23,822 nt of DNA, taken from positions 1 to 23,822 of the IMG/VR virus record IMGVR_UViG_3300010316_000049; one strand, written 5' to 3'. Under the pieces are notes generated by a model. That model did no database searches. It had not been told where the DNA came from and saw only the letters and a program-made list of their open reading frames with translations. This document shows, in pieces, positions 4,243 through 23,822 of this stretch. Both the position numbers and the translations under genes were made by a program. The DNA is from a virus. Each line of letters opens with the position of its first letter. Positions within the stretch are counted from its first letter, which is position 1.

Positions 4243-6855
4243 ATGGCCCCTAGAAAGATAACAAAGTTCCTCGGTATAGCCCCTAAGCTGTCTCCAGAGT
4301 TATTGCCAGACGCAGCAGCCCAGATCGCAGTGAATGTAAAACTGTATTCTGGGGACTTAATTCCCTATAGGGAGTCAGAGTCTGTTGGGAGTGTAGGTAG
4401 AAGTGGGGAACTTAAAACTATCTACCCGCTTAGCGACCCAGACACTGGCGTAAAGTCGTGGCTATCGTGGACTACAGACGTGGATGTTGCAGTCGCATCG
4501 TCATCCAATGATGATGATCAGCGTGTGTACTACACTGGAGACGGTGCGCCCAAAGTAACAAACTGGCGGACAGCTATATCAGGGGCTGGGCCTTACCCAT
4601 ATGCAGCTTATGATTTGGGCCTCCCGCTGCCGACCACTAAGCCTGTTGCTACTCCCGCGACTATCTCAGCTGTTGATATAATAAACGTGTCCCGTGACTC
4701 TGACAACATTGCTACGTATGAAACTGCCTCAGCGCATAACTTTCAGACTGGCGATGAAGTATCTGTGACAGGGTTCACTCATTTGACACTTAGTGCTACA
4801 GGCTCTTCATCAACAGATGATATTGTTGTGACAACATCTGATATGACCTTCGGTGTAGGCAGCAACGTAGACTGGATACATAAAGGTGGTAACCTGACAT
4901 CTGGGTACTTCACAATCTCCGAGGCTACATCGTCTACATTCACAGTTTCATTAGAGAACGGCGTTACATCTGGCACAGAAAACATCGAACTCAACATGCG
5001 TGGTTTTAATATTAAATCTGCATCTATTATAGTCATTGACTCTACACACTTTACAGCTTTCAGCGCTGGCCCGGAGATGACTGAGCATAGTACACCAGCA
5101 GATTTTGATACTGACTTCGGCGCTGGCATTGAGGTAGAACTCTCAGGCAAAGAACTATCCCGCGCGTATATCTACACGTGGGTAACGCCGTTCCTAGAGG
5201 AGTCAATACCTAGTGACCCTTCAGAAGATGCTTATGTGCGTGAGGGGCAGGACGTGACATTGTCATCGCTACCGACTGCACCACCCGCAGGAGATAACTT
5301 CATACGCGGGATACGGCTGTACCGCACGGTGACAAGTGCGTCGGGGTCCACATATTTCCTACTCAGAACATGCTGGTTCCCAATACAGCTAGTCTCAGCT
5401 GGACGAAGCGGGACTACAGTTACTGTCATAACAACTGACCCACACAACTTGGATGTGGATGACCTATTTAAGATCAGCGGCACAGAGTTTGGTGGAGTAG
5501 CAGATGCTACATTCGACATCACAGACGGCGTGGTGCTCAGCGTGGTAGACAACTACTCTTTTACATACACAAAAGCTGGTTCAGCTAAAGCGGTGACTGC
5601 TTGCACTGATGGAACACTGTACTCTGATGTTGCAGAATATGATTCAGGTGACAGCACTTACTATGAAGGCAGCACATTCCTGGACAACTACGATGTAGGT
5701 GGACTAGCTGTTGAGCTGTCTAGCCTTGATGCAGACGCTCCTGATCCAGCGATGCAAGGATTAATATCCGCCCACAACAACATGCTGGTCGGTTTTGTCG
5801 GGAACGAGCTGTGCTTTTCAGAGCCTAACAAGCCATGGTCTTGGCCGATTAAATACAGGCAGGTGTTTAGTGCAGACATCGTAGCTATTGCGGCTGTCGC
5901 TGGAGCCATTATCGTTTTGACAGATAAGTACCCACATATTGTTCAAGGTAGTACGCCAGCTAATATGTCTCAGTCTAGGGCTGACACATTAGCACCCTGC
6001 ATTGCCAAGCGCGGTGTGGTCAACATGGGGTACGGCGTAGTTTATCCGTCGCATGGGGGGCTTGCGTTCTACAGTCCATCCTCTGGGCTAGAGTTTGTGA
6101 CCAAGTCTATCCAAGACTGGGACACTTGGGACTCTGTCTACGTGCCGGAAACAATAGCAGCAGAGTTTTTTGATGGTAAGTATTTTGCTTCGCATTCTGC
6201 GGGGGCATTTATTTTTGAACGTGATGACGAAGTAGGGGGTATGCATGTAGACATACCAGCAAAGTGGTACGCAGCTTACTACGATGCTGCTGAAAGTTTA
6301 TTTTATTATACGTCAAATACGTCTGGTCAGCTGAAAGTGTGGGACGCAGAGGGGGGGTTACCCCTGTCGATCGAGTGGAAAAGTAAAGTCTTTGTAGATC
6401 CTGCGTATACGACTGTTGGTGCGATGCGCGTAGTAGCGGATTATGAGGAAGACGAGAGCACAGCCTTAGCGGTGTTAGCTTATAATACAGCTACCCCGGC
6501 TTACAACCAAGCATGGTGGGACTTACTTGACGATTTAGGCACAATAAATGCTCAGCATGATTACGACGACCCGGACACAGCCGAGCGCATAGTCATGTAT
6601 AACGGGTTGAATGATTCAGTCATTAACGGCACCCCACTTACACGCAACCTGCTGTCGCTAACAGGTGTCAGTGCTGTAACTGTTCAAGTGTGGGCAAATA
6701 AAACTCTCCAACACGCAGTCACTGTAACCAGCTCAGATATATTTAGGTTACCATCAGCGTATAAATCTGATACATTCGAAGTCTCAGTATCCGGGGCTGT
6801 GCGTGTACGGGCGATACACATGGCTGAAACCCCGTATGGGCTGAAAGGAATATAG
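4243..6855 (+). CDS. putative tail nozzle / tail-tube-associated virion protein
   Basis: 870 residues. The N-terminus (ITKFLGIAPKLSPELLPD, then AAQIAVNVKLYSGDLIPY) is characteristic of a family of podovirus tail proteins. Around residue 511 it has HNNMLVGFVGNELCFSEPNK followed by PWSWP, matching the FSEP-x-AWP signature of that family. Residues about 590-606 (RGVVNMGYGVVYPSHGG) add a further repeat-like beta segment. Inserted Ser/Thr-rich beta segments (about 145-290 and 375-460) probably form exposed domains; two carry similar SxHNF and TDPHNL motifs. The size and position before the ejection genes fit a nozzle comparable to P22 gp10 or T7 gp12, which forms the distal channel for DNA exit. 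The RBS is weak (GAGAT about six bases before ATG). The family call is from pattern memory; the nozzle role is inference. Confidence 0.65.
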   Translation: MAPRKITKFLGIAPKLSPELLPDAAAQIAVNVKLYSGDLIPYRESESVGSVGRSGELKTIYPLSDPDTGVKSWLSWTTDVDVAVASSSNDDDQRVYYTGDGAPKVTNWRTAISGAGPYPYAAYDLGLPLPTTKPVATPATISAVDIINVSRDSDNIATYETASAHNFQTGDEVSVTGFTHLTLSATGSSSTDDIVVTTSDMTFGVGSNVDWIHKGGNLTSGYFTISEATSSTFTVSLENGVTSGTENIELNMRGFNIKSASIIVIDSTHFTAFSAGPEMTEHSTPADFDTDFGAGIEVELSGKELSRAYIYTWVTPFLEESIPSDPSEDAYVREGQDVTLSSLPTAPPAGDNFIRGIRLYRTVTSASGSTYFLLRTCWFPIQLVSAGRSGTTVTVITTDPHNLDVDDLFKISGTEFGGVADATFDITDGVVLSVVDNYSFTYTKAGSAKAVTACTDGTLYSDVAEYDSGDSTYYEGSTFLDNYDVGGLAVELSSLDADAPDPAMQGLISAHNNMLVGFVGNELCFSEPNKPWSWPIKYRQVFSADIVAIAAVAGAIIVLTDKYPHIVQGSTPANMSQSRADTLAPCIAKRGVVNMGYGVVYPSHGGLAFYSPSSGLEFVTKSIQDWDTWDSVYVPETIAAEFFDGKYFASHSAGAFIFERDDEVGGMHVDIPAKWYAAYYDAAESLFYYTSNTSGQLKVWDAEGGLPLSIEWKSKVFVDPAYTTVGAMRVVADYEEDESTALAVLAYNTATPAYNQAWWDLLDDLGTINAQHDYDDPDTAERIVMYNGLNDSVINGTPLTRNLLSLTGVSAVTVQVWANKTLQHAVTVTSSDIFRLPSAYKSDTFEVSVSGAVRVRAIHMAETPYGLKGI

Positions 6856-9743: not shown

Positions 9744-11753
9744 ATGGTTGGACTATCTACATTTTTCTCTGCGGCTGTACCCGCCGCGCGCGGGGCAGCT
9801 ATTGGCCGTCAAAATGCTATCGGTATTGAGAAAGACATTAATGAGTTTGATGAAATCCATCGGAAGCGAGATGTCGAGAGGCTTATGTCTGATGGCCCCG
9901 GCCCAGGTGCAGCCCCAGGATTGGACGTCGGCATGGGACTTGACATACCAGCGAACTCCCCAGCTCCACCTGCACCCGGCGTCGATGGTCCGTATCCAAC
10001 GGCTCCGGCGGGCGGCGACTCGGAGATCCGCAGTCGGTTTATGGAAACAGTTAAAACCGGAGTGAACAACCCGTTCGCACTGGCTACCATTGCAGCTTAT
10101 GGTCAGCATGAGAGTGGCTATCAAGCTAAGAATGTTTATGGTCGCTGGCCAGACCCATCCGAGAGCGGGGAAGAAGGCGAGTCTGGAGGAGTGATGTCGC
10201 TACGTGATGGTGAGAAATCCAAGCGGCTGACTAACATGCTCAACTTCGTAGCCCTCAATGATGGTGATATTAACGCTCCATCGCCTGAGTTACAGGCACA
10301 GTTCCTGCTCGCAGAAAACCCGGACCTTATTAAGAAGCTGAACGCTGCTAAGAGTATTGAAGAAGCCAACCAGATCATGGCCGATGCATGGAGATTTGCA
10401 GGGTATGACCAGCGGGATGACCCCAATGGTGAGTACCAGTCACGGCTTCGCACATCGCAGACTGTACTTGGCAATCTTATGAATACTATTGAGTCTGCGT
10501 CCAGTTCGTCTGATGCAGACTTTGGCCCAGACACGCCGCCTATTGCAGGGTTGAACCGTCAGCTAGCCGATCAGGCCACTGGTGCTGACTTGATGACTGA
10601 CCTTGAGCAGATCAATGTTAACCTCAGAGGCGGCAAGCGTATGCCACTCGGTGCTGTTGCCGACCCACGTTACGAGGCTGCCCAGTTCTACAAAACTGAC
10701 GAGGCTGTACAGTACTTTGAGCAGTACCCAGAAGATATTGAAGAAGCGAAGGCTGATCCACTTGGGTTTTATAATTCTAAGTTTGCAGGCGGTGACCGTA
10801 CTGCCCTCGCAAATAGGTTCGCTGGCGACAAGCCCACACCGGAACAGATCGCTGACATTGAAAACCAAGAGCCTCTCCCTCCGGGGCAGGAAGAAGCCGT
10901 AACCACATCCGACTCAGAGCCAGATGTACCAGAGGCTATCAAGTCTGTATTGAAGCGCCCATCTAATCTGGTGAACTTCGAACTTGAGCGAGCCAAAAAA
11001 CGCATTGAGAACGCGAAGAGACTAGCCGAGGGGGAGTACGGAAGTCTAATAGGTCGTCGTAATCATGCTCTACATAAAGCTGAGGTGGCCCGCCGGACAG
11101 GCTCTGCCACTCTGCGCGAGGAGGCACTTGACACCATCAATGATATTGACAGTCAGATACGGAAGTTGAACGCAGGCATACAGACAGCCCATGATGCTGG
11201 CGTCAATGATGTTGTCAAGCTCGAAGCCGAGCTGGCTGTTCGTGATTTGATAGCATCTGGTGATCCACGCCGCATCGAGAAGCTGTGGCAGTATCTTGGT
11301 GGTACAGACGTGACTGTCAGACAAGCAGCCGGTGGTAAGTTTGTTGTCTCCTATGTAGGCGAGGACGGCAAGCGGGTGTCAACACTCACAACTAAGAACG
11401 AGATTGCTTCCAGCTTCTGGGCAGATATCTCCTCCGACTACCGCAACACAACAGCAGCGACAGCAGCATCACGCGCGGGTGCTGAGTTTGAGTCTATGAT
11501 CAAAAGGATTGAGAAACAAGCAGAGCAAGTAGGTGCGTCAAAAGCTGAGTTACTGTTAGAGAGCTTAAAGCAGCAGGGTATGGACGCGAGGGGAGACCCC
11601 CAAACAGGTACAGTAATATGGTCCACAAATGGTGATCTTTTCGAGTATAATCCTAACCCCGGTACAAATGCGAATGGGGTGGCAATGAAGAAATTAACAG
11701 TATCCCGCATCCCAAGAGTTGGGCAAGCGGGGCTAAGGACACCGAATGGCTAA
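9744..11753 (+). CDS. virion protein with lysozyme-like domain (gp15-position ejection protein)
   Basis: 669 residues from ATG 9744, with TGAGGAA at 9731-9737 and a seven-base spacer. Residues 1-50 are helical, 51-92 a Gly/Pro linker. Residues about 94-245 resemble the phage-tail lysozyme/transglycosylase-like fold: NPFALATIAAYGQHESGYQA with E123 as the candidate catalytic acid, GGVMSLRDGEKSKRL in place of the GIAQW region, then LQAQFLLAENPDL and MADAWRFAGY. The rest is mostly long helices (for example residues 430-560 with RAKKRIENAKRLAEG). In T7 the muralytic domain sits on gp16; here it is on the preceding protein, which could open the wall locally as the tail extends. It overlaps the giant gene by eight bases. 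Fold call moderate; role inferred from position. Confidence 0.7.
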   Translation: MVGLSTFFSAAVPAARGAAIGRQNAIGIEKDINEFDEIHRKRDVERLMSDGPGPGAAPGLDVGMGLDIPANSPAPPAPGVDGPYPTAPAGGDSEIRSRFMETVKTGVNNPFALATIAAYGQHESGYQAKNVYGRWPDPSESGEEGESGGVMSLRDGEKSKRLTNMLNFVALNDGDINAPSPELQAQFLLAENPDLIKKLNAAKSIEEANQIMADAWRFAGYDQRDDPNGEYQSRLRTSQTVLGNLMNTIESASSSSDADFGPDTPPIAGLNRQLADQATGADLMTDLEQINVNLRGGKRMPLGAVADPRYEAAQFYKTDEAVQYFEQYPEDIEEAKADPLGFYNSKFAGGDRTALANRFAGDKPTPEQIADIENQEPLPPGQEEAVTTSDSEPDVPEAIKSVLKRPSNLVNFELERAKKRIENAKRLAEGEYGSLIGRRNHALHKAEVARRTGSATLREEALDTINDIDSQIRKLNAGIQTAHDAGVNDVVKLEAELAVRDLIASGDPRRIEKLWQYLGGTDVTVRQAAGGKFVVSYVGEDGKRVSTLTTKNEIASSFWADISSDYRNTTAATAASRAGAEFESMIKRIEKQAEQVGASKAELLLESLKQQGMDARGDPQTGTVIWSTNGDLFEYNPNPGTNANGVAMKKLTVSRIPRVGQAGLRTPNG

Positions 11754-14700
11754 AGCACCAGCATACTTCAACCCAACAGACTTCCTCTTCGGGGGGTCAC
11801 CGCCTGCACAACCCGCAGGGATTGCTCCTCCGACAGCCTCGCCACAAGCGGGGCTTAGTGGCTTTGATGATCTCGCTGCAGAGTTCGGATTGGGTAATCA
11901 AGCTGGGCCTTCTACACCTGAAGTGATGTACAGCCCTACGAAGGCTGCATACTTTGTACCCGGCTTCGGCGAAGTTGAGGGTGACGACGCTGAGAATCTA
12001 CTGCGCTCTATGGAGGGTGGTAACCCAGACGCAGTTGCGCCTGATGGTAATGACTGGACACCTGTGGACCAAGATAGTTTCCTGTCGTTCCTAGAAGGTA
12101 TTAAGAACCCATCGAACAGTACCGCCATGTCAAAGAACTGGGATCTTGCTGTTGATGGTGGCCAGCGGATGATCGGGGCTGGGCTGCAGTTCCTAGGTGC
12201 CGAGGAGATAGGCACCAGAATGGTCGAGGGGAATACCGAGGAGATACGCAAAAACTCTCCGTACCAGCGTCAGTTTACAGACATAGGGTCTACCCCTAAC
12301 CATACAGTAACTCAGTGGTTCTTGGCCAACCTCGCGCAGGCAGGACCAAGTATCCTTGAGTCTGCAGTGACAGGTGCTCTGGGCTTCGTTGCCGGGTCTG
12401 CCGCAGGCGGGGGTCTCAACCCGTTCACAGGAGCAGCGGGTGCGGTTTTATCGTTCACTGGTAAGGCAGCGCTTAAGAAGACACTAACAGAGGTAGCCAA
12501 AAAAGCTAGGAACGGTGTAGCCTATGAGGCACTGAAAGATGCTGAGAAAAAAGCAGTCCGGTCCGCAGCTGGTATCTTTGGCGCAGCTGTAGCGACCACT
12601 GCCAACAACTACGCAACAGGCGTAGCAGATATCTACGGTGAAACACGCGACTCTGGTGACGGCACCGGTGATCGAGGGAAGGCTCTGCTCGGTGGCGCTT
12701 TGTATGCTGCGCTTGAAACGGTACCTGAATTTATACTGGCAGGCCGCTTGTTCGGTGACCTAGGTAGCAAAGCCCTAGGCAAAGCAGCCCCAACCACATG
12801 GCGTGGTAAGGCGACGAGCCTGTTGGGCAAGGCTACTAAAGGTGTTGGCGTCGGTGCTGGGCTTGAAGGGTTTACAGAGGGTGGCCAAGAAGCACTGCTG
12901 CTCGCAGCTAACCCTGACGTGGACTGGGACTCACCAGAGGGTATCAACAGATTAATAAATTCATTCGCAGCAGGCGCAGGCGTTGGTGGTACGATCGGTG
13001 GTATCTCGAACTTGAAGCCTGTTGACCTGATGCAACCTAATTTGTCTGCGGAGCCAACTCAGCTGCAGCTTGAGGATTTCAGCACCCCACAGCTGCAGAT
13101 CGAAAACTCAGGTGCCCCCAAGCTCCTCGAATACCACACCCTTACACCTCCACCACCGAGTGGACCGCCAGATGTTATTAACCAAGGAGGCCCGATCGGG
13201 CCACCACCTGCACCGATAGCAGATGCACCACTTGATATAAGCGAAGCGCCTGCACTAGGTGGCTACGGAGCGCCGACTTCATCTGGCTCGCTAGACGTTA
13301 CTCCCCCTTCATCTGGCACTCCAGTGGTTTCTCCTCCCCAGACCACACTGGAAGCCCCTGCCCAACCTTTACGGATGGGAGATGAGAGTCAGCTGGGTGT
13401 GCCAAACTCCTCCCCAGTGGCACCTCAGCTGGCTGTTGTTCCTGACTTACCGTCGTTCTCAGTAGAGGACGCAGCCGGAGCGATGCTGCCTGCTGTTAGG
13501 CCTGCCAGTGGCCAGCGCCCACCTATACGCCCACGCGGCAGTACAGCACAGACAGACACACCACCGCCTATACGCCCACGCGGCAACAGGGTTCCCCCCG
13601 GCCAGACAATGGTAGCTGAAGACGCGGCTGCTGCAGCTTCGCCTGCGTTGACAATGCCAGCTCAAGAAAAGCCAGCCCCTAAGAAGGCGCTGCGCGGGTT
13701 CCTCAAGCCGAAGGTTGAAGCAAAAGAGGAAGTAAAAGCTGACAAGCCGTTCAAGAAAGACCTTAAGACAGGAGAGTGGAGTGGCCGCGTTGGCGGTAGG
13801 GATGCTACGATCTACCGTGACACTGACCAGTTTTCGTACCCAACTTGGCATATAACTGCGGATACTGCGAAGAACTTTGGCATCGACGTAGACAAACCAT
13901 ATGTATCTACAAACTTAGGCGGCACCAAAGCCGATGCCTTAGCAAAACTAGAGGAGTTGGCAGCCGACCCAGACCTGACACCTCCCCCGTCTAAGACAGA
14001 CAAAAAGACAAAAAATAAAAAAGACTTGCGGGCAGCAGCGAGAGCAGCAGCTAAGGCTGAGGCAGCAGCTAAGGCTGAGGCAGCAGCTAAGGCTGAGTCA
14101 AAGCCAGCGCCGAAGGCTGAAGTGAAAGAGGAGTATCTCGAAGAAGCTACTCCGGTAGCTACCCCACTAGGTACTGGCAAGAGTAAACCACTGGCCGATG
14201 CGAAGCTGGATGACAGCATGAAGACTGTTGCCGAGCGCCAAGCTAGGCAAGCTGAACGGGATGGCGTCGTGCCGACCAGTGATATTCTCAGTAAAGACCC
14301 TACCAGTAGAGAGAATGCCGAGCTGGACGGGATGATATCAACTGCCCTCGAAAATCAGGACCGCCGAGAAACTGTTACCGCACTGTCTTCCATTATGGAC
14401 TATGCGTTTACACCATCCAGTTTTGACGACAATAAAAACCGTGAAGAGCGCGCACTGGCGTTCTTGCAGAACGAGGTGGATGAGAACTCTACTGAGTACG
14501 GCGACGCATTGCTCGATCATATGGGTGAGAACTATAAATTCTATAAGGATGCATCAACCCTCAAGCCAGCGTTTGAAGCACTGATGCAGGTAGGCCTGTT
14601 GAACCGCGCGTTCCGTGAGGGCGTGCTGGTTGCTGATAAGAAAACCATTGACCGCTTGGCAGAGCATAACATCATAGTTGATCAGGCGCAGGTAGTCCCA

Positions 14701-17700
14701 GACTTCGCTGGCTCCCAGATGCTCGCGGACGCTATACAGCAGTTCAATGAGTCAGGGGCTACAAGCATCCCACCACAGTCAGTAGTCGGTAAGCTCACAG
14801 CTAAGAAGAAGGGAGCTAGCATGCAGTTCCTACTGGGTGACGAGCCACTGCAAAGCTACTTCAAAGGTACGGCCCCCAACTTCGTGCGACAAGCTGATGA
14901 CACTATCCAGATCGTATCAACCAACGCGAAGGCTGGCCGCTATTCTATCGCGAGCTGGGACACCACTGCTGATATGCTGAGCAATGACGGCACGCCTGCG
15001 AAGGCAATGGCACTGGGGGAAGCGCGCCTACTCGCTAAGGCATTTGTTAACAAGCTAGGCGCTAAGATAAAGCTGCATGTATACCGTAACCAAGCTGACA
15101 TGCTAGCACGCAACCCTGATCTGCACGCACGCGCGAGCGCAGAAAGAGATGGCGATTTCGACTCGGCTCCGGCGGCGGGTTATTCGTTCGGCAAGGGCGA
15201 GGTCATTATTTTCTCCGACCAGATTATGGGCAAACAGCACTTGAACTTTGTGCTTGCGCACGAAGCCATCGGCCACCACGGATTCCGGGCAGTAGTCCCT
15301 GGTGACAAGCTGGCCTCTGTCCTGGGGGATCTATATCGCAACGGCCCGCAAGCCCTCCGGGTGGCAGTGGACGCAGCAGTGGACGCCCGCAAGATGTCAA
15401 AGGCTGAAGCAGTCGAAGAGTACATGGCTGACATGGCTGCGACATTGGATTCGAGCCTCATTGTTCGCTTCTTCTCCAAGATCAAGACGTTCCTAAACAA
15501 ATTTGGGATGACATTCTCTGATGACACATCCCGCTACTGGCTGGATCAGGCACGCCGCTACACACGCAACGGCCCGTCAGCTGGCACGATGGTGCAGAAC
15601 TCTGCCATTATGAAACGGTTGATGGACGTAGAGCGCGGGTTCGACCCACGTAACCTAGGGCGCTTCAGCCGCAATTCATGGAGTGTCACCAACCGCGCTA
15701 CTGCAGCCGTCCGACAGGAATTTGGGTACAACCCACTCGACGCACTGGATGCACTGCCAAAGCTCATAGCCAAGGCCAAGGAAAACTTCGGGAGTGTAGA
15801 CAAGTTCTTCAACGCATTCAAACTGGTCAACTATCAGGCCCGTGAGAACTTCGGGATGAAGCACGTCTACACAATACTAGAAGAGATGACAGCTACGGCA
15901 CGCCAGAAGGTGCTTAAGTATTATCGTGGTATGAACCTCACGCTGAACAGGGCAGTAGAGATTGGCAACATGAAACTCCCACTCGGTGGCCAGACCAAAG
16001 AGCAGGTGCACACTGCCAACATGATCACGTTTAACGCAGGGGAGAGCTTTTGGGGCACGTCTGAGGGGCAGCTGAATAAGCTGCATATACTCGACGGTCT
16101 TAGTGGTAAGGCTAAGCTGAAAGTAGCAGACATAGAGAAACTTGCGGCTATGGGTAGGCGCTCACCTGAAGAGATTGCTAATGGCTACAGCTTTAAAAAG
16201 CCAGAGCCGCAGCCTGTGACCGAGGCAGACCGCAAGCGCATAGAAGCGCGTCGTGATAAAGCACTGGAAGGTGCCACTAGTGACGAGCGCAAAGAAGAAA
16301 TTCGCTTAGAGTATAAGAACATGCTCGAAGAGAATATTAAAATAGTCGAGAGGACTATCCACGTAGCGCCTGTGCCCGGAATAACTGCCGATAGTGTCGA
16401 GTACAAAATGTATCTTGAAATGCTGGACGCTATGAAAGAGGCGCAGATTGACAAAGTTCTATCCCATCTTGCGAAGGCTGAGGGCCAGTGGGAGCAGGCT
16501 ATGTTCCGCGTGGCTAAGTCTTATAACAAGAAAAAGTTGGACTCCCAAGATCGTGCGTTTGTGAAACTCATGCGCGACAAGTACATGGAGATTAGGAATG
16601 CTGACGCTTCAGTCGCGGGTGATGGGTCACTGTCGCACACTGAAGAAGCGCTGAAGAACGCCACTGAATTTATAGAAACACTCAACGCTGCAATACTAGG
16701 GCGCGAGACTGATCGCTCTACAAAAGCGTCTGCGTATTTCAAAGGTAAAGAGTCTGAGGTGTTTGCCGAGATAGAACGGTTTAAAGCGGCTAACCGGCCA
16801 CTGAGAAACAGCACACTTGAGTATACATTACAGCATGAGATTCAAGTTCTAGCAGATATGGAACAGGCCAAAATGGTTGAAGCCGATAGAGCTAAGCGCG
16901 GGATTGCTGAGGGATGGGTGCCTACTGCGCGCAGAGGAGATTGGCAGGTTCGGATTGTTGCTGTCGATGCAGTATCCGGTGCTGATGTGGTTGTTGACCC
17001 AGAGCTAAGCAAGATGTTTGGCTACCACCAGTTTGAAACCGAGCAGAAGGCAACAGCTGCAGCTGAAGATATTTCCAAGGACTTCGCAAACGCAGGGGAT
17101 GGTATTTACGATATGCCAGTGCTTGAAGGCAACACATGGGAGACTAAAAAAATTAAACTTGTAGGTCGGTGGGCAGCTGTCCAGAAGGAACGTCTTGATC
17201 CGGGTCAGGGTAACATCCACGAATTTTCTAGGCTCATCACACAGTTCGGTATTCAACTTCGCCCAGAGAAGCGCGAGCAGATTACGAAGATGATGTCATC
17301 TCAGTCATCACGCCTGCGTAGAGGCTTGAGGCGTGAGGGTGTCGAAGGCGCAAATGTAGACATGGTACGCTCCGTGTCAGAGTTCCTCGAAGAGGCTGCC
17401 AGCATCGTGGCGCGCAACACGCACATGCACAAGATCGACGCGGCACTGGATAAGACCAATCCACAATTCGACGAGCTATGGTACGGCAGTGAAACTAGAT
17501 ATGCTGAGCTTGACCAGAACTGGAAGGCCGCAGAGGCGGACCCTACGCTGCCATTAGAAGCTAAGCAGAGCGCCAAGCGGGAGTTCTACGAGTATCACTA
17601 CATCTACAAGACTATGAAGTCCAAGACACAAGGCAGTAAGTATATCGACCGCGCGGTCCATCTTGTGACGTTCATCAACTCACAGAGGGACATAGCCTAC

Positions 17701-19305
17701 AACGAGTTCGCAACCGGCGAGATATCTGGGCGGCTAAGAAACCTCACAGTGGTATCCCAGCTGGGTGGTTCGTTTGCTACTGGCCTGCTGAACATCATCT
17801 CGGTCGGCACTAACACGCTACCTGCACTGGCATCATATAACCAGAAGACCAACTTCGGTGGCGGGTTCGGGTTTGGTAAGTCTGCCATGGCGCTGTCTGT
17901 AGCTGGTAACCAGGTTGGGAGGTTTACTCGCAACACTGTGGAGTATTATCAGTCGCTTAAAGACAACCCGGCTATGCGCAAGTCAGTAGGGCTTAGCGAG
18001 GTGGAAGTTAATTTCATGTACGACTTCATCAACTCTGGGCGCGGGGACTCAGCATCCTCAAACAGTTTGATGGCAACCACTCGCGGGCGGGCAACATCAG
18101 GTGCCAGCCAGAAATTCATCGAGACATTCATGTACCCGTTCACTGCCAGTGAGCAATCGTCTAGGCGCATAAGTGGCCTCGCAGCATTCCGGCTGCAGTA
18201 CGAACATTCCAAGGCTGCTGGCATGTCAGACGTTGATGCCTATAACAAGGCGAGTGCGTTCTCTATCAGGCTGATGGATGACGCGATCGGGCAGTATGCG
18301 AACTTCGGTATGCCAGCTGCATTCCGTGGCGGTGCTATGCAGTTCTTGTTCATGTACAAGGTGTTCCCAGTGACTACCTTTAACGTACTTAAGAACATGG
18401 ACTACAAAGGCAAGATCGCAATGGTGGGCGCGCTGATAATACTAGGTGGTATCAAGGGTATCCCGTTCTCGGAAGACCTTATGGACATCCTTGATACGCT
18501 GGCGCAGAAACTACTAGGTATGAAAGTTGGCTCAGTGGAAGTTGAGTTCTATAAGATGGCTGACAGCATCATGCCAGGTCTGGGCGCTATCCTAGCTCAC
18601 GGTCTTATAGATGGCGCCACTCCAGCCACTGTCTCTACACGCACACAGACTGGTAACATCATACCGGGCACATCGGGCTTCCTGCCTTATGCGGATAAGT
18701 ATCGTGAGGTTCAGGAAGTCCTTGGCCCTATGGCCTCATCCATGCAGCAGTACGTTGCTACGGCTAACAACATTGGCAAGTACATACTAGAAGCTGCAGG
18801 CCTTAAGGCTGACACCACTTCACTCAACCAGATACTCCGTGAGTCACCGATCACAATGCTTCGCGCTGTCGCAGACACATACGCGTATCAAGAGAATGGT
18901 TCGATTGTAAACCGCAGGGGATACCTCGTCAGTGACGATCTGCACTTCGGAACCTATATGGCTAGGCTGCTAGGGTTCTACCCATCAGCAGCATCGCGCC
19001 AGAACGAAGTGATCTCCATGTCTATGCGCGTCGCCAACTACAGCAAAGAGGTCAGCATCAACTTCCGCACAGCGTGGTTGAAAGCACGGGCGGTTAATGA
19101 CCTGAGTGCTATGCGTCACGTAGAGCAGCAAGTGCGGGATTGGAATGAAGGTGCAGAAGGTACAGGGCTAGAGGTTACTAACTTCCTGAAGAACGCAGCG
19201 CGGGCATACAAACAAATGATGCTGCCCGCTACTACGCGTTCTCTGAAGGCTATGCCTAAGTCTGTTAGGCCAACAGCAGAAACTATGATTAAGATTTTTG
19301 AGTAA
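11746..19305 (+). CDS. giant (2519 aa) polyvalent/ejection protein with zincin-like motif
   Basis: ATG 11746 has AAGGA at 11735-11739 and overlaps the previous stop. Layout by residue: about 1-195 soluble head; 199-420 hydrophobic Gly/Ala-rich segments with glycine-zipper character (SAVTGALGFVAGSAAGGG); 430-650 Pro-rich linker with duplicated PPIRPRG; 670-735 a small domain; 740-790 Lys/Ala-rich with three AAAKAE units; about 1085-1260 a putative metallopeptidase domain with AHEAIGHHGFRAV (H1172, E1173, H1177, H1178) and a downstream EAVEEYMAD (E1224/E1225 as possible third ligand); 1280-2000 long helices; about 2006-2030 and 2224-2241 hydrophobic helices in a C-terminal part typical of large phage polyvalent proteins. 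It sits where T7 gp16 (1318 aa) would, so it is probably injected or forms the inner part of the ejection channel. Peptidase activity is inference; H-x4-H spacing differs from HExxH. Confidence 0.78.
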   Translation: MAKAPAYFNPTDFLFGGSPPAQPAGIAPPTASPQAGLSGFDDLAAEFGLGNQAGPSTPEVMYSPTKAAYFVPGFGEVEGDDAENLLRSMEGGNPDAVAPDGNDWTPVDQDSFLSFLEGIKNPSNSTAMSKNWDLAVDGGQRMIGAGLQFLGAEEIGTRMVEGNTEEIRKNSPYQRQFTDIGSTPNHTVTQWFLANLAQAGPSILESAVTGALGFVAGSAAGGGLNPFTGAAGAVLSFTGKAALKKTLTEVAKKARNGVAYEALKDAEKKAVRSAAGIFGAAVATTANNYATGVADIYGETRDSGDGTGDRGKALLGGALYAALETVPEFILAGRLFGDLGSKALGKAAPTTWRGKATSLLGKATKGVGVGAGLEGFTEGGQEALLLAANPDVDWDSPEGINRLINSFAAGAGVGGTIGGISNLKPVDLMQPNLSAEPTQLQLEDFSTPQLQIENSGAPKLLEYHTLTPPPPSGPPDVINQGGPIGPPPAPIADAPLDISEAPALGGYGAPTSSGSLDVTPPSSGTPVVSPPQTTLEAPAQPLRMGDESQLGVPNSSPVAPQLAVVPDLPSFSVEDAAGAMLPAVRPASGQRPPIRPRGSTAQTDTPPPIRPRGNRVPPGQTMVAEDAAAAASPALTMPAQEKPAPKKALRGFLKPKVEAKEEVKADKPFKKDLKTGEWSGRVGGRDATIYRDTDQFSYPTWHITADTAKNFGIDVDKPYVSTNLGGTKADALAKLEELAADPDLTPPPSKTDKKTKNKKDLRAAARAAAKAEAAAKAEAAAKAESKPAPKAEVKEEYLEEATPVATPLGTGKSKPLADAKLDDSMKTVAERQARQAERDGVVPTSDILSKDPTSRENAELDGMISTALENQDRRETVTALSSIMDYAFTPSSFDDNKNREERALAFLQNEVDENSTEYGDALLDHMGENYKFYKDASTLKPAFEALMQVGLLNRAFREGVLVADKKTIDRLAEHNIIVDQAQVVPDFAGSQMLADAIQQFNESGATSIPPQSVVGKLTAKKKGASMQFLLGDEPLQSYFKGTAPNFVRQADDTIQIVSTNAKAGRYSIASWDTTADMLSNDGTPAKAMALGEARLLAKAFVNKLGAKIKLHVYRNQADMLARNPDLHARASAERDGDFDSAPAAGYSFGKGEVIIFSDQIMGKQHLNFVLAHEAIGHHGFRAVVPGDKLASVLGDLYRNGPQALRVAVDAAVDARKMSKAEAVEEYMADMAATLDSSLIVRFFSKIKTFLNKFGMTFSDDTSRYWLDQARRYTRNGPSAGTMVQNSAIMKRLMDVERGFDPRNLGRFSRNSWSVTNRATAAVRQEFGYNPLDALDALPKLIAKAKENFGSVDKFFNAFKLVNYQARENFGMKHVYTILEEMTATARQKVLKYYRGMNLTLNRAVEIGNMKLPLGGQTKEQVHTANMITFNAGESFWGTSEGQLNKLHILDGLSGKAKLKVADIEKLAAMGRRSPEEIANGYSFKKPEPQPVTEADRKRIEARRDKALEGATSDERKEEIRLEYKNMLEENIKIVERTIHVAPVPGITADSVEYKMYLEMLDAMKEAQIDKVLSHLAKAEGQWEQAMFRVAKSYNKKKLDSQDRAFVKLMRDKYMEIRNADASVAGDGSLSHTEEALKNATEFIETLNAAILGRETDRSTKASAYFKGKESEVFAEIERFKAANRPLRNSTLEYTLQHEIQVLADMEQAKMVEADRAKRGIAEGWVPTARRGDWQVRIVAVDAVSGADVVVDPELSKMFGYHQFETEQKATAAAEDISKDFANAGDGIYDMPVLEGNTWETKKIKLVGRWAAVQKERLDPGQGNIHEFSRLITQFGIQLRPEKREQITKMMSSQSSRLRRGLRREGVEGANVDMVRSVSEFLEEAASIVARNTHMHKIDAALDKTNPQFDELWYGSETRYAELDQNWKAAEADPTLPLEAKQSAKREFYEYHYIYKTMKSKTQGSKYIDRAVHLVTFINSQRDIAYNEFATGEISGRLRNLTVVSQLGGSFATGLLNIISVGTNTLPALASYNQKTNFGGGFGFGKSAMALSVAGNQVGRFTRNTVEYYQSLKDNPAMRKSVGLSEVEVNFMYDFINSGRGDSASSNSLMATTRGRATSGASQKFIETFMYPFTASEQSSRRISGLAAFRLQYEHSKAAGMSDVDAYNKASAFSIRLMDDAIGQYANFGMPAAFRGGAMQFLFMYKVFPVTTFNVLKNMDYKGKIAMVGALIILGGIKGIPFSEDLMDILDTLAQKLLGMKVGSVEVEFYKMADSIMPGLGAILAHGLIDGATPATVSTRTQTGNIIPGTSGFLPYADKYREVQEVLGPMASSMQQYVATANNIGKYILEAAGLKADTTSLNQILRESPITMLRAVADTYAYQENGSIVNRRGYLVSDDLHFGTYMARLLGFYPSAASRQNEVISMSMRVANYSKEVSINFRTAWLKARAVNDLSAMRHVEQQVRDWNEGAEGTGLEVTNFLKNAARAYKQMMLPATTRSLKAMPKSVRPTAETMIKIFE
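13522..13585. repeat. 19-bp direct repeat in Pro-rich linker
   Basis: A 19-base sequence beginning CCTATACGCCC occurs at 13522-13540 and again at 13567-13585, in the same reading frame, encoding two PIRPRG motifs 15 codons apart in the linker of the giant protein. The identical DNA suggests a recent duplication. Confidence 0.85.
14044..14097. repeat. three perfect 18-bp tandem repeats inside the giant gene
   Basis: The unit GCAGCAGCTAAGGCTGAG occurs three times back to back, in frame, encoding AAAKAE three times (residues 767-784). It extends a Lys/Ala-rich, probably helical or disordered, linker between the N-terminal hydrophobic half and the rest of the giant protein. The perfect DNA identity points to recent slippage and possible length variation between relatives. 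Confidence 0.9.
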
Positions 19306-19309
19306 TAAC

Positions 19310-19315
19310 AAGGAG
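19310..19315 (+). promoter_or_regulatory. Shine-Dalgarno for the repeat microprotein gene
   Basis: AAGGAG lies seven bases before ATG 19323, in the 17-base gap after the giant gene's stop. It is among the best Shine-Dalgarno matches in the window and is the main reason to accept the short ORF that follows as translated. Confidence 0.8.
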
Positions 19316-19322
19316 AAAGACT

Positions 19323-19484
19323 ATGGATAAGCAAACTAGCCGCCCAGTAATGGGTAAGAAAACTAGCCGCCCAGTAATGGGTAAGCAAACTAGCCGCCCA
19401 GTGATGGGTAAGAAAACTAGCCGCCCGGTGATGGGTACTAATTTATCTAGACCCATCATAGGACGTACCAACCAGTCTGATTAA
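19323..19484 (+). CDS. 53-aa basic tandem-repeat protein, unknown function
   Basis: ATG 19323 to TAA 19484, last gene of the plus-strand operon. After MD the product is four copies of K-[Q/K]-TSRPVMG with Q and K alternating at position 2 (Q, K, Q, K), a fifth diverged copy TNLSRPIIG, and a tail RTNQSD. The composition is 12 Lys/Arg against 2 Asp, so the protein is strongly basic and probably extended; no TM or signal is visible. In the fifth copy Ser, Arg, Pro and Gly are kept while nearly every codon differs (TCT for AGC, AGA for CGC), and changes in copies 3-4 are synonymous, which argues for selection on the protein. I do not recognise the family. Possible roles include nucleic-acid binding, a head-packaged peptide or binding of a host partner through RP motifs; all are guesses. 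Confidence 0.75.
   Translation: MDKQTSRPVMGKKTSRPVMGKQTSRPVMGKKTSRPVMGTNLSRPIIGRTNQSD
19329..19463. repeat. 27-bp tandem repeats (4 near-identical copies plus 1 diverged)
   Basis: Units at 19329-19355, 19356-19382, 19383-19409 and 19410-19436, with a diverged fifth at 19437-19463. Copies 1 and 3 carry CAA and copies 2 and 4 AAA as second codon, so the array probably arose by duplicating a 54-bp dimer. Copies 3 and 4 share GTG where 1 and 2 have GTA, and copy 4 has CCG instead of CCA. Confidence 0.95.
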
Positions 19485-20077
19485 CCGAACGGGTCTTCCT
19501 CCGCCTCTGCGGGGGTCAAGAACCCTAGGTTCTTCTGCGCATTGTTGTGTGCAGCAGTTAAGCATTTAATCTGGTGGTAGCAATCATCCAGTGCATTGTG
19601 GTGTACACCCTCACGCTTGATGTTGCGATGGTTGAACCCAGTCAACTCATATGCCATCAAGTATGCTGTGCGTGTATCGCGAAGCTGGTTGTATTCCCAA
19701 GGCGGAGTCCGGCCACCTGCAATGATTGCCCTTGCCCATATGGGCGCGTCGAAGTCCTGACCCTGTGCCCAGATATATTTAACTGGTTCACTCAGTTGGC
19801 GATACCAGAACTCAAAGCTGCGCACCACTGACGGCAACACCATCCGCTCAGTAGATGTGAATATCTTACGGGCTTCTTCTGACTGGCTCATCCACCACTG
19901 TATTGTGTCAGCGTCAAGATGTAAGCCGCACTCTTGTGAAGACACGGGGTTAATCTCTGCGTAGAACTTGTCGATGATCTTCCCACTGAGCCGGTTGAAC
20001 TGTACCGCCCCCACTGATAACACCACGGCTCCGGGCTTTGTGCCCAGTGTTTCTAGATCAAGCATTAAATCATACAT
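19481..20077 (-). CDS. DEDDh 3'-5' exonuclease, Rv2179c-like
   Basis: 198 residues from ATG 20077, chosen because GAGGAG (20084-20089, minus strand) lies six bases upstream; a longer TTG-type start at 20104 lacks this. DnaQ-superfamily motifs are clear: Exo I LMLDLETLG (D7, E9), Exo II WAQGQDFDAPIW (D110) and Exo III HHNALDDC (H160, D165), so it is DEDDh type. PGAVVLSVGAVQF and WWMSQSEEAR match the phage/bacterial Rv2179c-like subgroup, known for 3'-5' exonuclease activity. Length fits a stand-alone nuclease. It would act in nucleotide recycling, RNA turnover or proofreading for the phage polymerase (polymerase not in window). Last gene of the minus-strand module; its stop shares TTAA with the converging repeat-protein gene. 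Confidence 0.87.
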   Translation of the reverse strand: MYDLMLDLETLGTKPGAVVLSVGAVQFNRLSGKIIDKFYAEINPVSSQECGLHLDADTIQWWMSQSEEARKIFTSTERMVLPSVVRSFEFWYRQLSEPVKYIWAQGQDFDAPIWARAIIAGGRTPPWEYNQLRDTRTAYLMAYELTGFNHRNIKREGVHHNALDDCYHQIKCLTAAHNNAQKNLGFLTPAEAEEDPFG

Positions 20078-20083
20078 TGCAGT

Positions 20084-20089
20084 CTCCTC
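20084..20089 (-). promoter_or_regulatory. Shine-Dalgarno fixing the exonuclease start
   Basis: GAGGAG on the minus strand with a six-base spacer to ATG 20077. It favours this start over the in-frame codon at 20104, which has no good ribosome site. Confidence 0.8.
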
Positions 20090-20110
20090 AGTTGTGTGCA
20101 ACAATCGCGC

Positions 20111-20170: not shown

Positions 20171-20203
20171 ACCCCGCCTCCTAACAGAGCGCGGGGTCTT
20201 TTT
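20171..20203 (+). terminator. rho-independent terminator, rightward
   Basis: ACCCCGC (20171-20177) pairs perfectly with GCGGGGT (20191-20197); an inner CTC/GAG pairing adds three pairs with one bulged base and leaves a six-base loop. TCTTTTTA follows at 20197-20204, so termination is expected for plus-strand transcripts. On the minus strand the hairpin is followed by TTAAATGTTC, a poor U-tract. It ends right at the stop codon of the primase-helicase gene, so it would shield that gene from late plus-strand antisense transcription. Confidence 0.8.
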
Positions 20204-23087
20204 ATTTCACCACCTGCAGCCTATCTAGGACAGAGGTCTTCTCATTGGCACTGGCATCTACTTCGCGCAGGATACCAACCAAGTCTGCGTGGGTAAGGTC
20301 AATACCGAGCACTCTGACCTGACCAATCCTAAGCTCTGTGCCCTTGGCCAAGTATGCCTTACCAATTTTTGGGGTGCAGTCTATCTTCTCCTCGGCCACC
20401 CAGTTGGTCACATACTTGTAGTCCACACTGTTTTCGGTCAGCCACACCTTGAAGTCACGCACGTCGATAAGGACACGCCCTGCATCGGCAGGTGAAGCAG
20501 CATCCTTGCGGTCGATCTCGAAGCGCAGACGCACACCATCACGGACTGGAACCCTGTTGTAATCTATCATAGGCTTGGCACCACCGTTTGATATGGCAGT
20601 GACTGCGTTGCTCATGCGGGCATTAAAGTATTCTGACAGCACCTCATAAGGTGCCACGTATTTCTCAGAGACTGACTCACGCATCTCTGCAAGCTGGCTT
20701 CCAACCCACTGTGTAGATGCATCAGGTGAGAAAGGTATGGCCCCAATTTCGTAAGCGATCGAGCCAGCAAAGTCAGCTACCATAATAGCATTCTCCCACA
20801 TTCTTTCTGGACCTCTAAACTTAATGCCGGTCCTCTGGGTGAACTGCTCCCTGTGCTCGTTGAACTGGGCACGGACAACATCCGCACCAAGGGCCATAAT
20901 GTGTGTTAAGAATTTCTCCCCGACAAAACCATAGTGCTTCCGCACACCATGGAACATTACCCGCCCTGCCTTTGAGTCCTCCTCGAATATCGCGCGCCTT
21001 GGCAGGTCAAACTCCAGCAACCTCAAGGCCTGTGCTTCGGTCTCCATCCCCATAGAATTTAAGATGCTCATAAACGATCTGTTGGAAGACATAAGCACCG
21101 GCATATGGTACTTAAGTGTCGGGCGCTCTGTGCCATCGCGATACAGCCGAGCGGTGTCTTGGCCTTGTGCTATGTTGTACAGGTATCTGCCGACGTCCTT
21201 GATATCAAAAGTAGTAGCCTCATCAATACTGGCTACTAGGTTACAAAACCTACCGAACCTAGCATACATAGCTTTCTCAGTTGTGTTGGCCGACACGTGC
21301 AGTTCTTTCGGGTTGCCCCAAATACCCTGCGCATACAGCTGCGCTATTGTTTTACCGGCCCCTGACTTACCTGTGTAACTTATAGTTAACCCATTGAAGT
21401 CCAGCATCTCATACAAGATAGATGATAGAGATACGTTAACAGCAAACGCTGCAGGGTTCAGCTTGGCTGCGGGTATGCACTTCAGTAGCTCGTTCTGCAT
21501 ACGTGGGTCACCATTTGTGTGCCAGTCAGACTTCTTACTAGTAGATGAAACCACATTGGCAGTAGTCGTGCCCTCTTTGACAACCTTGCCATCAACCAGT
21601 TTGAATAGGGTGTCACCCAAAAGGAATTGCTCCCAGCCATTCTTCCAACCCATACTGGAGTGCAGGTTTGAAATGGTGCGGACGCGGCGGAGTTCGTGCA
21701 TGTACGCTCTAAGCATGATCTGAAACAACCCTGTCTGTTCTTTACTGTCTAGTATAATCCCTTGGTCGGCACACGCTGAGGCAAACTCACGGTGGCCATC
21801 GGTCAGGTGGGCCATCCTGATAGTCAGTTCTTGCCACCCTACATTCACCCGCTCCCAATGGAAGCGCACAACTTCGTAGTCATCGCTTCTGTCTTTACCG
21901 TAGCTAACTGCGTAGATACTGAACGGGCAGACCACAGTTTCAATGTCGTCTATTATATAGGTCATGCCGTTCTTCGTGCTTCTGAACGGGGCGGGCACTT
22001 CCACTATCGACGCTATCTCGTCAGGGGCTTTCTCTGCAATAGCCTCGTCTTCGTACTTGATGCCGAGGCGGCACGGTGTTGTGATCTTATCCTTGTACTT
22101 ACACCCATCACAACCTGATGGGTTGTTAATCATAAACGCTGCACATGTCGCTGGGCCAGTGGTGTTATCGCGCCATTGATCGAGCTTAGCCAGCGTAGTC
22201 TCTTGGTCATAGTCGGGGTGCTGGTCGCTCCATGCGATCGCTACATTCTCAGGCTCAGTGCAGTGGGCTGCGATACCCATGAGGTTATACCACTGTGGTT
22301 CACCTACGTCAGCCTGGTTTTTAACTAGGCCTTGGATCTGCTGGCACTTCTTGTATATCAGGCCAGCCTCAGCCGGTGGGAAGTCAGCTTGCACTGCCAT
22401 GTTAGCCAAGATGGAAGACTCGGATGCCTTCTTCAACGGCGCACCAGTACCTACAAATTGTTTTAAGCACGCTGCAAAGTCCTCAACGCTGACAGCAGGA
22501 GCATCTAGCACCACCTTCACTTCACCCCCACCACGGGCGTTGTGTGTGCCTACAGGGCGCAGCACCCTAGCCGTATCAGCTGGCACAGCTGGGTCATACA
22601 GCGGCTTACGATCGTGGCCTATAGGGATAACAGCTTTGAGTGCTTGGGCAATGGGTATCCACTCAGCGCGGGATAGTTCACGGTCCATGACCCAGTACAC
22701 ATGAAGCCCGTTGCCGGAACGTACCACCATTGGTTTTGGTAGGTTGTGCAGCTTGACGGTCTTGCCGAGGGATACTAACCCCTCCTTCCAAGACGGGAAC
22801 GGTTTACCCTCACCGCAATCTATATCGTAGAAAAATGTCTTGAGCGCTACTACGTTACCCGCGATGCGCTTGTTCTTTGTCCCTGCTCCATATACCTCGT
22901 CACTGAATGACGCGACCCCATAATAAACATTCTTGCCTTGCTTGTCGAACTTGAGCGCAGCAGCAGCTGCGTCCTCTATCTTAGAATAAAACTTTTGTAT
23001 TAACCCAGTGTATCCCTTTAATGGGAAGCCCACCATGTAGTTTCCTTCGACTGGCAAGACGCGTTGCAAAAAAGCTAACGTGTCCAT
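20202..23087 (-). CDS. AEP-like primase fused to DUF927-like P-loop helicase/ATPase
   Basis: 961 residues; ATG 23087 with a modest GGGA site eight bases upstream. Residues 1-210 look like an archaeo-eukaryotic-type primase: VALKTFFYDIDCG with D88 and D90 as metal ligands, RSGNGLHVYWVM with H129, and RVLRPVGTHNARGGG. About 262-308 resembles a PriCT helical domain (YNLMGIAAHC, then AIAWSDQHPDYD). A Cys cluster (C315, C326, C329, C339) may bind zinc. About 540-710 is a P-loop ATPase: Walker A GKSGAGKT (573-580), Walker B LVASIDEA (D622, E623), sensor-like MPVLMSSN (N669), as in DUF927-type helicase-like proteins. About 830-950 is a C-terminal, possibly winged-helix, region. It would prime and unwind DNA at the phage replication fork. 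Domain order is seen in the sequence; activities are inferred from families. Confidence 0.82.
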   Translation of the reverse strand: MDTLAFLQRVLPVEGNYMVGFPLKGYTGLIQKFYSKIEDAAAAALKFDKQGKNVYYGVASFSDEVYGAGTKNKRIAGNVVALKTFFYDIDCGEGKPFPSWKEGLVSLGKTVKLHNLPKPMVVRSGNGLHVYWVMDRELSRAEWIPIAQALKAVIPIGHDRKPLYDPAVPADTARVLRPVGTHNARGGGEVKVVLDAPAVSVEDFAACLKQFVGTGAPLKKASESSILANMAVQADFPPAEAGLIYKKCQQIQGLVKNQADVGEPQWYNLMGIAAHCTEPENVAIAWSDQHPDYDQETTLAKLDQWRDNTTGPATCAAFMINNPSGCDGCKYKDKITTPCRLGIKYEDEAIAEKAPDEIASIVEVPAPFRSTKNGMTYIIDDIETVVCPFSIYAVSYGKDRSDDYEVVRFHWERVNVGWQELTIRMAHLTDGHREFASACADQGIILDSKEQTGLFQIMLRAYMHELRRVRTISNLHSSMGWKNGWEQFLLGDTLFKLVDGKVVKEGTTTANVVSSTSKKSDWHTNGDPRMQNELLKCIPAAKLNPAAFAVNVSLSSILYEMLDFNGLTISYTGKSGAGKTIAQLYAQGIWGNPKELHVSANTTEKAMYARFGRFCNLVASIDEATTFDIKDVGRYLYNIAQGQDTARLYRDGTERPTLKYHMPVLMSSNRSFMSILNSMGMETEAQALRLLEFDLPRRAIFEEDSKAGRVMFHGVRKHYGFVGEKFLTHIMALGADVVRAQFNEHREQFTQRTGIKFRGPERMWENAIMVADFAGSIAYEIGAIPFSPDASTQWVGSQLAEMRESVSEKYVAPYEVLSEYFNARMSNAVTAISNGGAKPMIDYNRVPVRDGVRLRFEIDRKDAASPADAGRVLIDVRDFKVWLTENSVDYKYVTNWVAEEKIDCTPKIGKAYLAKGTELRIGQVRVLGIDLTHADLVGILREVDASANEKTSVLDRLQVVK

Positions 23088-23152: not shown

Positions 23153-23437
23153 TTATTCCTGCGCTTCCATCAAGTCCGATAGATACTTCACCCTATCGGC
23201 GGGTTCCATTTCAAGAACCTCAGTGGAAGGCCAGCCTTCATCTCGCAAGACATTAACCATCTTGCGGATAGTGACGCGCAGCTTGGCAGTACGTGAGGGT
23301 CTAGGCTCAATGCCTGATACCCATGAGTAGTAGGTCTGCCTCGAAGCACCCAGTATCTTAGCCATGTCCTTAACGGTCAGTAGCATCTGCTTACGGAGTG
23401 CCTCGATAGTTTTGAAGTTTAACGGCTTACTCGTCAT
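23153..23437 (-). CDS. XRE-like helix-turn-helix DNA-binding protein
   Basis: 94 residues from ATG 23437, with GGTGAG seven bases upstream; an in-frame extension to 23485 runs over the previous gene and is not supported. Residues about 7-40 are a helix-turn-helix of XRE/Cro type: FKTIEALRKQMLLTVKDMAK, then ILGASRQTYYSWVSG, where ASRQTYYSW is the recognition helix. The C-terminal half is helical (TAKLRVTIRKMVNVLRDEG) and could dimerise. The start overlaps the stop of the acidic/basic protein gene by 11 bases, so translation is coupled. It could regulate the early/late switch or this operon; the inverted repeats at 20111 and 20150 are candidate targets but nothing in the sequence proves it. Confidence 0.78.
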   Translation of the reverse strand: MTSKPLNFKTIEALRKQMLLTVKDMAKILGASRQTYYSWVSGIEPRPSRTAKLRVTIRKMVNVLRDEGWPSTEVLEMEPADRVKYLSDLMEAQE

Positions 23438-23822
23438 CTGCCATCTCACCCAACAAGCCAGCAATCTCCTCTTCCAGATCGCCATTAGGCTCAGCTACTT
23501 TTGCAGCTGGCTTCTTAGCAGCTGGCTTCTTAGCAGCTGGCTTCTTCGGTGCCTCTACTTCATCCTCGTCGCCGTCCTCAGCTTCAAGAGCTTCCATCTC
23601 TGCCTTCATCTTGGCCAGCTTGTCAGCCTTCCGCTTCTTCTCAGCAGCAGCTGCGACTTCGGCAGGGTCTGGCTCATCCTCGGCAGCCTTAGCAGCATCA
23701 GCCTTCTTCTTGGCAATGGCAGCCCGCTTAGCCTCCAGCTGTGCCTGCAACTCAGCTTCTTCATCGTCTTCTTCAGACGACTCTTCAGCTTCCTCTTCTG
23801 GCTCTGGCTCTGGCTCTGGCTC
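23427..23822 (-). CDS. acidic/Lys-Ala-Pro-repeat protein, 5' end missing
   Basis: The frame is open to the window edge, so at least 131 C-terminal residues are seen and the true start is outside; TTG 23750 is only an internal candidate. The visible N-terminus is acidic with EPEPEPEP and a Glu/Asp/Ser run. A helical Ala/Lys-rich part follows (KRAAIAKKKADAAKAAEDE), then EDGDEDEVEAPKKP. Three AAKKP units recall histone H1-type tails, and the end is acidic again (LEEEIAGLLGEMADDE). No catalytic domain is visible. It may be the disordered C-terminal tail of a larger DNA-binding or replication protein whose folded part lies to the right. Function not assigned. Ends overlapping the helix-turn-helix start. 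Confidence 0.68.
   Translation of the reverse strand, partial: EPEPEPEPEEEAEESSEEDDEEAELQAQLEAKRAAIAKKKADAAKAAEDEPDPAEVAAAAEKKRKADKLAKMKAEMEALEAEDGDEDEVEAPKKPAAKKPAAKKPAAKVAEPNGDLEEEIAGLLGEMADDE
23503..23547. repeat. three 15-bp tandem repeats encoding AAKKP
   Basis: Unit GCAGCTGGCTTCTTA (plus strand) repeated at 23503, 23518 and 23533, with only the last base of the third copy changed. Read on the minus strand it gives the KKPAA repeats of the cut-off protein. Near-identity at DNA level suggests recent expansion. Confidence 0.9.

Follow-up and report, generated by a model that had tools for sequence, protein, structure and literature searches.

A nonapeptide-repeat microgene at a variable phage gene junction, possibly encoding a basic multivalent docking peptide

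Introduction

Is a phage reading frame built almost entirely from one nine-residue unit a gene, and if so, what might its product do? The question is raised by an ORF at positions 19323 to 19484 (+) of the virus record IMGVR_UViG_3300010316_000049, a 23.8-kb contig that is probably incomplete and that was analysed over its whole length of 23,822 nucleotides (the window). If translated, this ORF would give a clean case of a phage microprotein that consists of a single short linear motif in repeat, belongs to no known family and is encoded in a variable slot of the genome, and its binding partner would reveal how phages build multivalent docking peptides.

The setting is podovirus-like, as the nozzle and fibre genes of the window are homologous to the solved complex 8jov, which we take to be the tail of Ralstonia phage GP4 with chain A as its nozzle. 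The product of the gene at 4243 to 6855 (+) is probably the tail nozzle protein because it matches 8jov chain A (E 8e-60); the same protein falls in phrog_511, labelled internal virion protein by PHROGs. The N-terminal domain of the fibre protein is the one seen in phrog_8469 and in the 8jov tail fibre chain, and a phage lysozyme gene is found at 67 to 600. The conserved part of the late block ends with a gene (11746 to 19305, +) for a giant protein of 2519 aa, assigned from NCBIfam and from its homologues to the PLxRFG family NF032893 (129.3 bits, above the cut-off of 100), with homologues in F116-like phages at 22 to 24% identity. Inside the giant gene there is also an exact triple 18-nt repeat, GCAGCAGCTAAGGCTGAG, at 14044 to 14097 (+). 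On the opposite strand are a convergent gene for an Rv2179c-like 3'-5' exonuclease (19481 to 20104, -; PF16473, 1e-43) and a gene for a DUF927 primase/helicase-like protein (20202 to 23087, -; PF06048). A 107-aa ORF at 23427 to 23750 (-), which may run off the end of the window, combines a basic KKPAAKKPAAKKPAAK tract (a 15-nt repeat present 2.9 times) with an acidic C-terminal end and weakly matches a phage SSB family.

The repeat array and its translation

The microgene, defined by its ORF, its translation and a tandem-repeat search, encodes 53 aa (MDKQTSRPVMGKKTSRPVMGKQTSRPVMGKKTSRPVMGTNLSRPIIGRTNQSD*). The translation is as described in a sequence-only reading of this DNA, which had reported four K-[Q/K]-TSRPVMG units and a diverged fifth, TNLSRPIIG. 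Unit comparison places the units, all on the plus strand, at 19329 to 19355 (unit 1, KQTSRPVMG), 19356 to 19382 (unit 2, KKTSRPVMG), 19383 to 19409 (unit 3, KQTSRPVMG), 19410 to 19436 (unit 4, KKTSRPVMG), and 19437 to 19463 (unit 5). With a period of 27, 4.3 copies, a 93% match, and a score of 188, this is the top array that Tandem Repeats Finder reports in the window. A pattern of two in-register RP[V/I..][M/I]G units 27 nt apart gave 4 matches at the repeat ORF and none in 100 shuffles. Units 1 to 4 are identical to one another at 24 to 26 of 27 bp, while unit 5 matches each of them at 10 to 11 of 27 bases (11 with unit 4) and at 4 of 9 residues, to which the changes V>I and M>I may be added.

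The repeat ORF is probably a real, translated gene because its Shine-Dalgarno sequence is the second-strongest tested in the window, its frame has a better codon score than the other five, and its stop shares 4 nt with that of the convergent exonuclease gene. The Shine-Dalgarno sequence, AAGGAG (19310 to 19315, +), is found 7 nt before the ATG, and its anti-SD duplex of -8.5 kcal/mol ranks second of 20 starts tested, behind the gene at 854, in keeping with the strong site claimed earlier. With codon usage trained on the long genes of the window, the microgene frame scores +0.12 and the other five frames -0.2 or lower. The ATG is 17 nt downstream of the stop of the giant gene, and the microgene does end the late block directly after the giant, as had been proposed. 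That gene callers would pass over so short an ORF, as had been suggested, is doubtful, since its 162 nt exceed the default minimum gene length of Prodigal, which is 90 nt. In a simple scan, no promoter-like site was found next to the ORF, and terminator-like matches around it were no more frequent than expected by chance.

The giant/primase junction in relatives

The place of the microgene in the phage genome was approached through relatives. Alignment of giant C-termini retrieved 80 viral loci, 36 of which hold both flanks, the giant and the primase; the giant C-termini are about 40% identical and the primases are 37 to 44% identical across the 36. In 22 of these 36 relatives the two genes overlap tail to tail by 4 to 14 nt, in 8 they are spaced by 49 to 63 nt, and in 6 the junction extends over 372 to 1664 nt and holds unrelated cargo. 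The cargo includes a phage lysozyme gene preceded by a 155-aa ORF (L040, L045, and L046), an N6/N4 DNA methylase (L047), a pentapeptide-repeat protein and DUF6378 (L065), and a lipoprotein-like ORF (L060). The loci L029 to L065 form an uncultured podovirus-like phage group in which a PLxRFG giant and a DUF927 primase stand tail to tail, with variable cargo in some.

The junction of the window is 896 nt long and contains the repeat ORF and the exonuclease. None of the 36 relatives that hold both flanks has the repeat ORF at this junction, and it was likewise not found in phage relatives reached via the giant, the nozzle protein or the primase. The exonuclease is unmatched in 20 relative records. 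Neither the motif nor the peptide has a match anywhere in 34 relative records, although these are partly fragments and near-identical records may be missing from them, so that absence is not proof. Because the junction lacks both genes in relatives and holds other cargo in some, the repeat ORF and the exonuclease are, by this comparison of gene order, accessory genes at a variable junction and stand outside the conserved ejection module. The proposed tie to the ejection giant is not supported, as relatives with comparably similar giants and primases lack the repeat gene. We infer that the junction genes were gained in the lineage of the window, a direction that is not polarised by a tree.

An orphan sequence at a variable junction is also what would be expected of a young and possibly non-functional ORF that slippage or duplication created in the spare DNA separating two convergent genes. 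The near identity of copies 1 to 4 indicates that they were duplicated recently, which fits such an origin. Against it stand the strength of the Shine-Dalgarno sequence, the exact fit between the neighbouring genes, the synonymous differences between copies, and the in-register position of unit 5, and we consider this origin unlikely.

Possible protein constraint and the unit 4/5 inverted repeat

If the array is maintained for its protein, the differences between copies should bear this out. Units 1 and 3, and likewise units 2 and 4, differ only synonymously (GTA/GTG, CCA/CCG), which bears out the claim of synonymous copy differences for these pairs but not for neighbours, between which the Q/K change is non-synonymous. 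Three synonymous differences set against a synonymous share of 22% give a P of about 0.01 for a 54-bp duplication, and P is 0.05 if GTA>GTG arose once. Under a null in which the DNA identity is left unchanged, the similarity of the unit 4 and unit 5 proteins has a P of 1.2e-4.

This comparison is complicated by an inverted repeat, TGATGGGTaCTA-ATTTATC-TAGACCCATCA (19429 to 19458, +), identified from the sequence and by folding, in which the end of unit 4 pairs with unit 5. The inverted match is perfect over 8 bp and reaches 11 bp with one bulge. The hairpin has a folding energy of -16.5 kcal/mol, with a P of 0.001 against shuffled unit 5 and of 0.015 when codons are randomised with only the protein sequences preserved. 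The segment CCC-GTG-ATG-GG of the unit is near-palindromic, and for this reason an inverted copy partly resembles a direct copy; the appearance of unit 5 as the same residues in different codons is partly due to this palindromy. The likeness of units 4 and 5 at the protein level has a P of 0.014 when the arms of the hairpin are kept fixed. The S and G of unit 5 are not accounted for by the hairpin, and the probability of both is 0.009. The earlier inference of protein-level constraint thus holds insofar as the similarity exceeds that of the DNA in the simple test, but it is weakened once the inverted repeat is allowed for, and it is best regarded as moderately supported. Units 4 and 5 may be constrained at both the protein and the DNA level.

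Alternatively, the array may be a DNA or RNA element, with the open frame incidental: the 27-bp units may serve as tandem sites, or they may fold into hairpins where the late mRNA ends, between two convergent genes. Frames stay open trivially with a 27-bp period, and the CCC[A/G]-GT[A/G]A-TGGG segment gives each exact unit a stem with a GNRA loop, which, together with the stability of the unit 4/5 hairpin and the folding of the repeat region (z=-2.4), suits an element of this kind. In the exact units (19341 to 19436, +), the stem is of 4 bp, the loop is GUAA or GUGA, and the synonymous A/G change preserves the GNRA form. Set against an element are the strong Shine-Dalgarno sequence and ATG, the tight gene packing, the favourable codon score, and the S and G of unit 5 that the hairpin does not explain. 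No U tract follows the unit 4/5 hairpin, so that it is no terminator by that criterion, and the repeat region has no Rfam or tRNA match. On balance a nucleic acid element with an incidental frame appears quite improbable.

The peptide and its proposed role

The peptide is strongly basic, with a net charge of about +9.5 and a pI of about 12, as had been noted. A single-sequence structure model shows no secondary structure (pLDDT 63, pTM 0.11), and although a model of such low confidence is weakly informative, it is consistent with a disordered peptide. No match was found among Pfam, NCBIfam, or PADLOC profiles, and PHROG matches were below threshold, in agreement with the view that the peptide belongs to no recognised family; the PDB also gave no relevant match. 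The PHROGs 35026, 35124, and 36347 match the repeat weakly (E 0.004 to 0.07), and kinship with them was rejected, since motif-only probes were unmatched save for the bare double repeat against phrog_36347 (E 0.04). Look-alikes returned by tblastn from phages and plasmids show weak repeat similarity only, among them MT840024, an unannotated metagenomic scaffold with an 8-residue SARPVT[PT]RR array. Pattern-matched stretches, 20 in viral and 236 in genome collections, included none confirmed as related loci, and matches to degenerate DNA patterns, tandem or single motif, were chance frames only. A homologue was thus not found in phage, viral-contig, bacterial-genome, or plasmid collections, and the SRPVMG/SRPIIG motif, expected elsewhere in varying copy number, was searched for without success.

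The best explanation overall, which we hold tentatively, is that the microgene encodes a late, accessory, disordered, basic peptide for multivalent docking. It would be expressed late as a cargo microgene of the giant/primase junction, its array having presumably lengthened as units of 27 and 54 bp were duplicated. In each unit, S-R-P would be followed by a hydrophobic knob, V-M-G or I-I-G, and the knobs would be separated by basic spacers. Multivalent docking is suggested because short motifs with basic spacers stand in tandem, and the units might dock together on a repeated protein surface while nucleic acid is held through lysine and arginine contacts, in the way of T7 gp7.3 at the nozzle and the DNA end. 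This mechanism of docking and DNA holding, drawn by analogy, is itself somewhat doubtful. The position among junction cargo argues against a core virion role, and the DNA-level inverted repeat of units 4 and 5 counts against the docking peptide as a whole.

Resemblance to the T6SS protein TssG

A more specific docking partner is suggested by the type VI secretion system (T6SS). The feet of TssG fill the three-fold cavity of the TssK shoulder trimer with three hydrophobic residues, each of which precedes a small residue (PMC8406304, PMC6300606). In loop 1 these are M228, L236, and M242, at spacings of 8 and 6, and changes to Arg abolish TssK binding (PMC6300606). SRPVMG corresponds exactly to residues 238 to 243 of TssG from EAEC (E. 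coli). They belong to foot 1, the part that docks into the trimer of TssK, and cyclic (SRPVMG)x3, a designed peptide, binds TssK and inhibits the T6SS (PMC8406304). The same hexapeptide is found in the phage peptide, whose [MI]G steps might enter the trimeric shoulder of the phage's own fibre or of host TssK in the manner of LG repeats, in the latter case blocking the T6SS.

TssG loops were sampled from genomes of the class to which a Pseudomonas belongs and of that of a Variovorax, and several have LG-x7-LG spacing and [VI][ILM]G endings. LG-x7-LG-x4-[IL]G loops, for instance LGETPATGLLGMTAVIG, are found among the sampled genes; the peptide reads MG-x7-MG-x7-MG-x7-MG-x7-IG, and the V>I and M>I changes of unit 5 also occur in TssG. 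However, the second gap in TssG is of 4 residues and in the peptide always of 7, SRPV belongs to a variable stretch of TssG and is seen in none of the sampled loops displayed, and the phage fibre resembles an 8jov-type tail fibre, the TssK likeness of its domain being putative. The PF06996 profile is unmatched by the peptide at E up to 10, and the peptide lacks an LG-x(n)-LG-x4-LG loop, so that it was rejected as a TssG family member. A six-letter match from a text scan of 5.39 million papers can be chance, one of the three papers returned by the scan is unrelated, and the match to foot 1 may be of this kind. Docking of the TssG type is improbable; if the match is not chance, T6SS baseplate assembly would be connected to a phage accessory gene. 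The strong form of such docking, in which by analogy the phage peptide would naturally imitate the TssG foot in a multivalent way, with SRPV[MI]G repeats filling three-fold hydrophobic cavities of a trimeric shoulder domain and so disabling the host T6SS baseplate or tethering the fibre trimers of the phage itself, is very improbable.

Comparison with known systems

Returning to the basic docking peptide, several known systems offer partial likenesses. The three weakly matching PHROGs are of 46 to 50 aa and of unknown function, and their similarity to the repeat is below any sensible threshold. Accessory late cargo genes of tailed phages, or morons in the wide sense, are likewise extra genes between conserved modules at a variable junction; strict-sense morons have their own promoter and terminator, neither of which the scan detected here, and a repeat architecture is unusual among them. 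TssG foot 1 and cyclo(SRPVMG)x3 share with the peptide a hydrophobic residue plus Gly at regular steps and, for the cyclic peptide, several SRPVMG copies, but the foot spacing is 6 to 8, whereas the repeat peptide keeps 9 throughout four to five linear units, is of phage origin, and has no TssG domain. In T7, six copies of gp7.3 are found at the nozzle-adaptor junction, where their lysines touch the DNA end (PMC11784390). This 99-aa tail part docks on tail components and DNA, an action extended to the repeat peptide by analogy alone, and it has no known nonapeptide array; no sequence relation is claimed. Both are small, positively charged phage proteins, gp7.3 being mostly unresolved, and the repeat peptide is positively charged and, according to its low-confidence model, disordered. 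The microgene product may perhaps be virion- or DNA-bound in a manner similar to T7 gp7.3.
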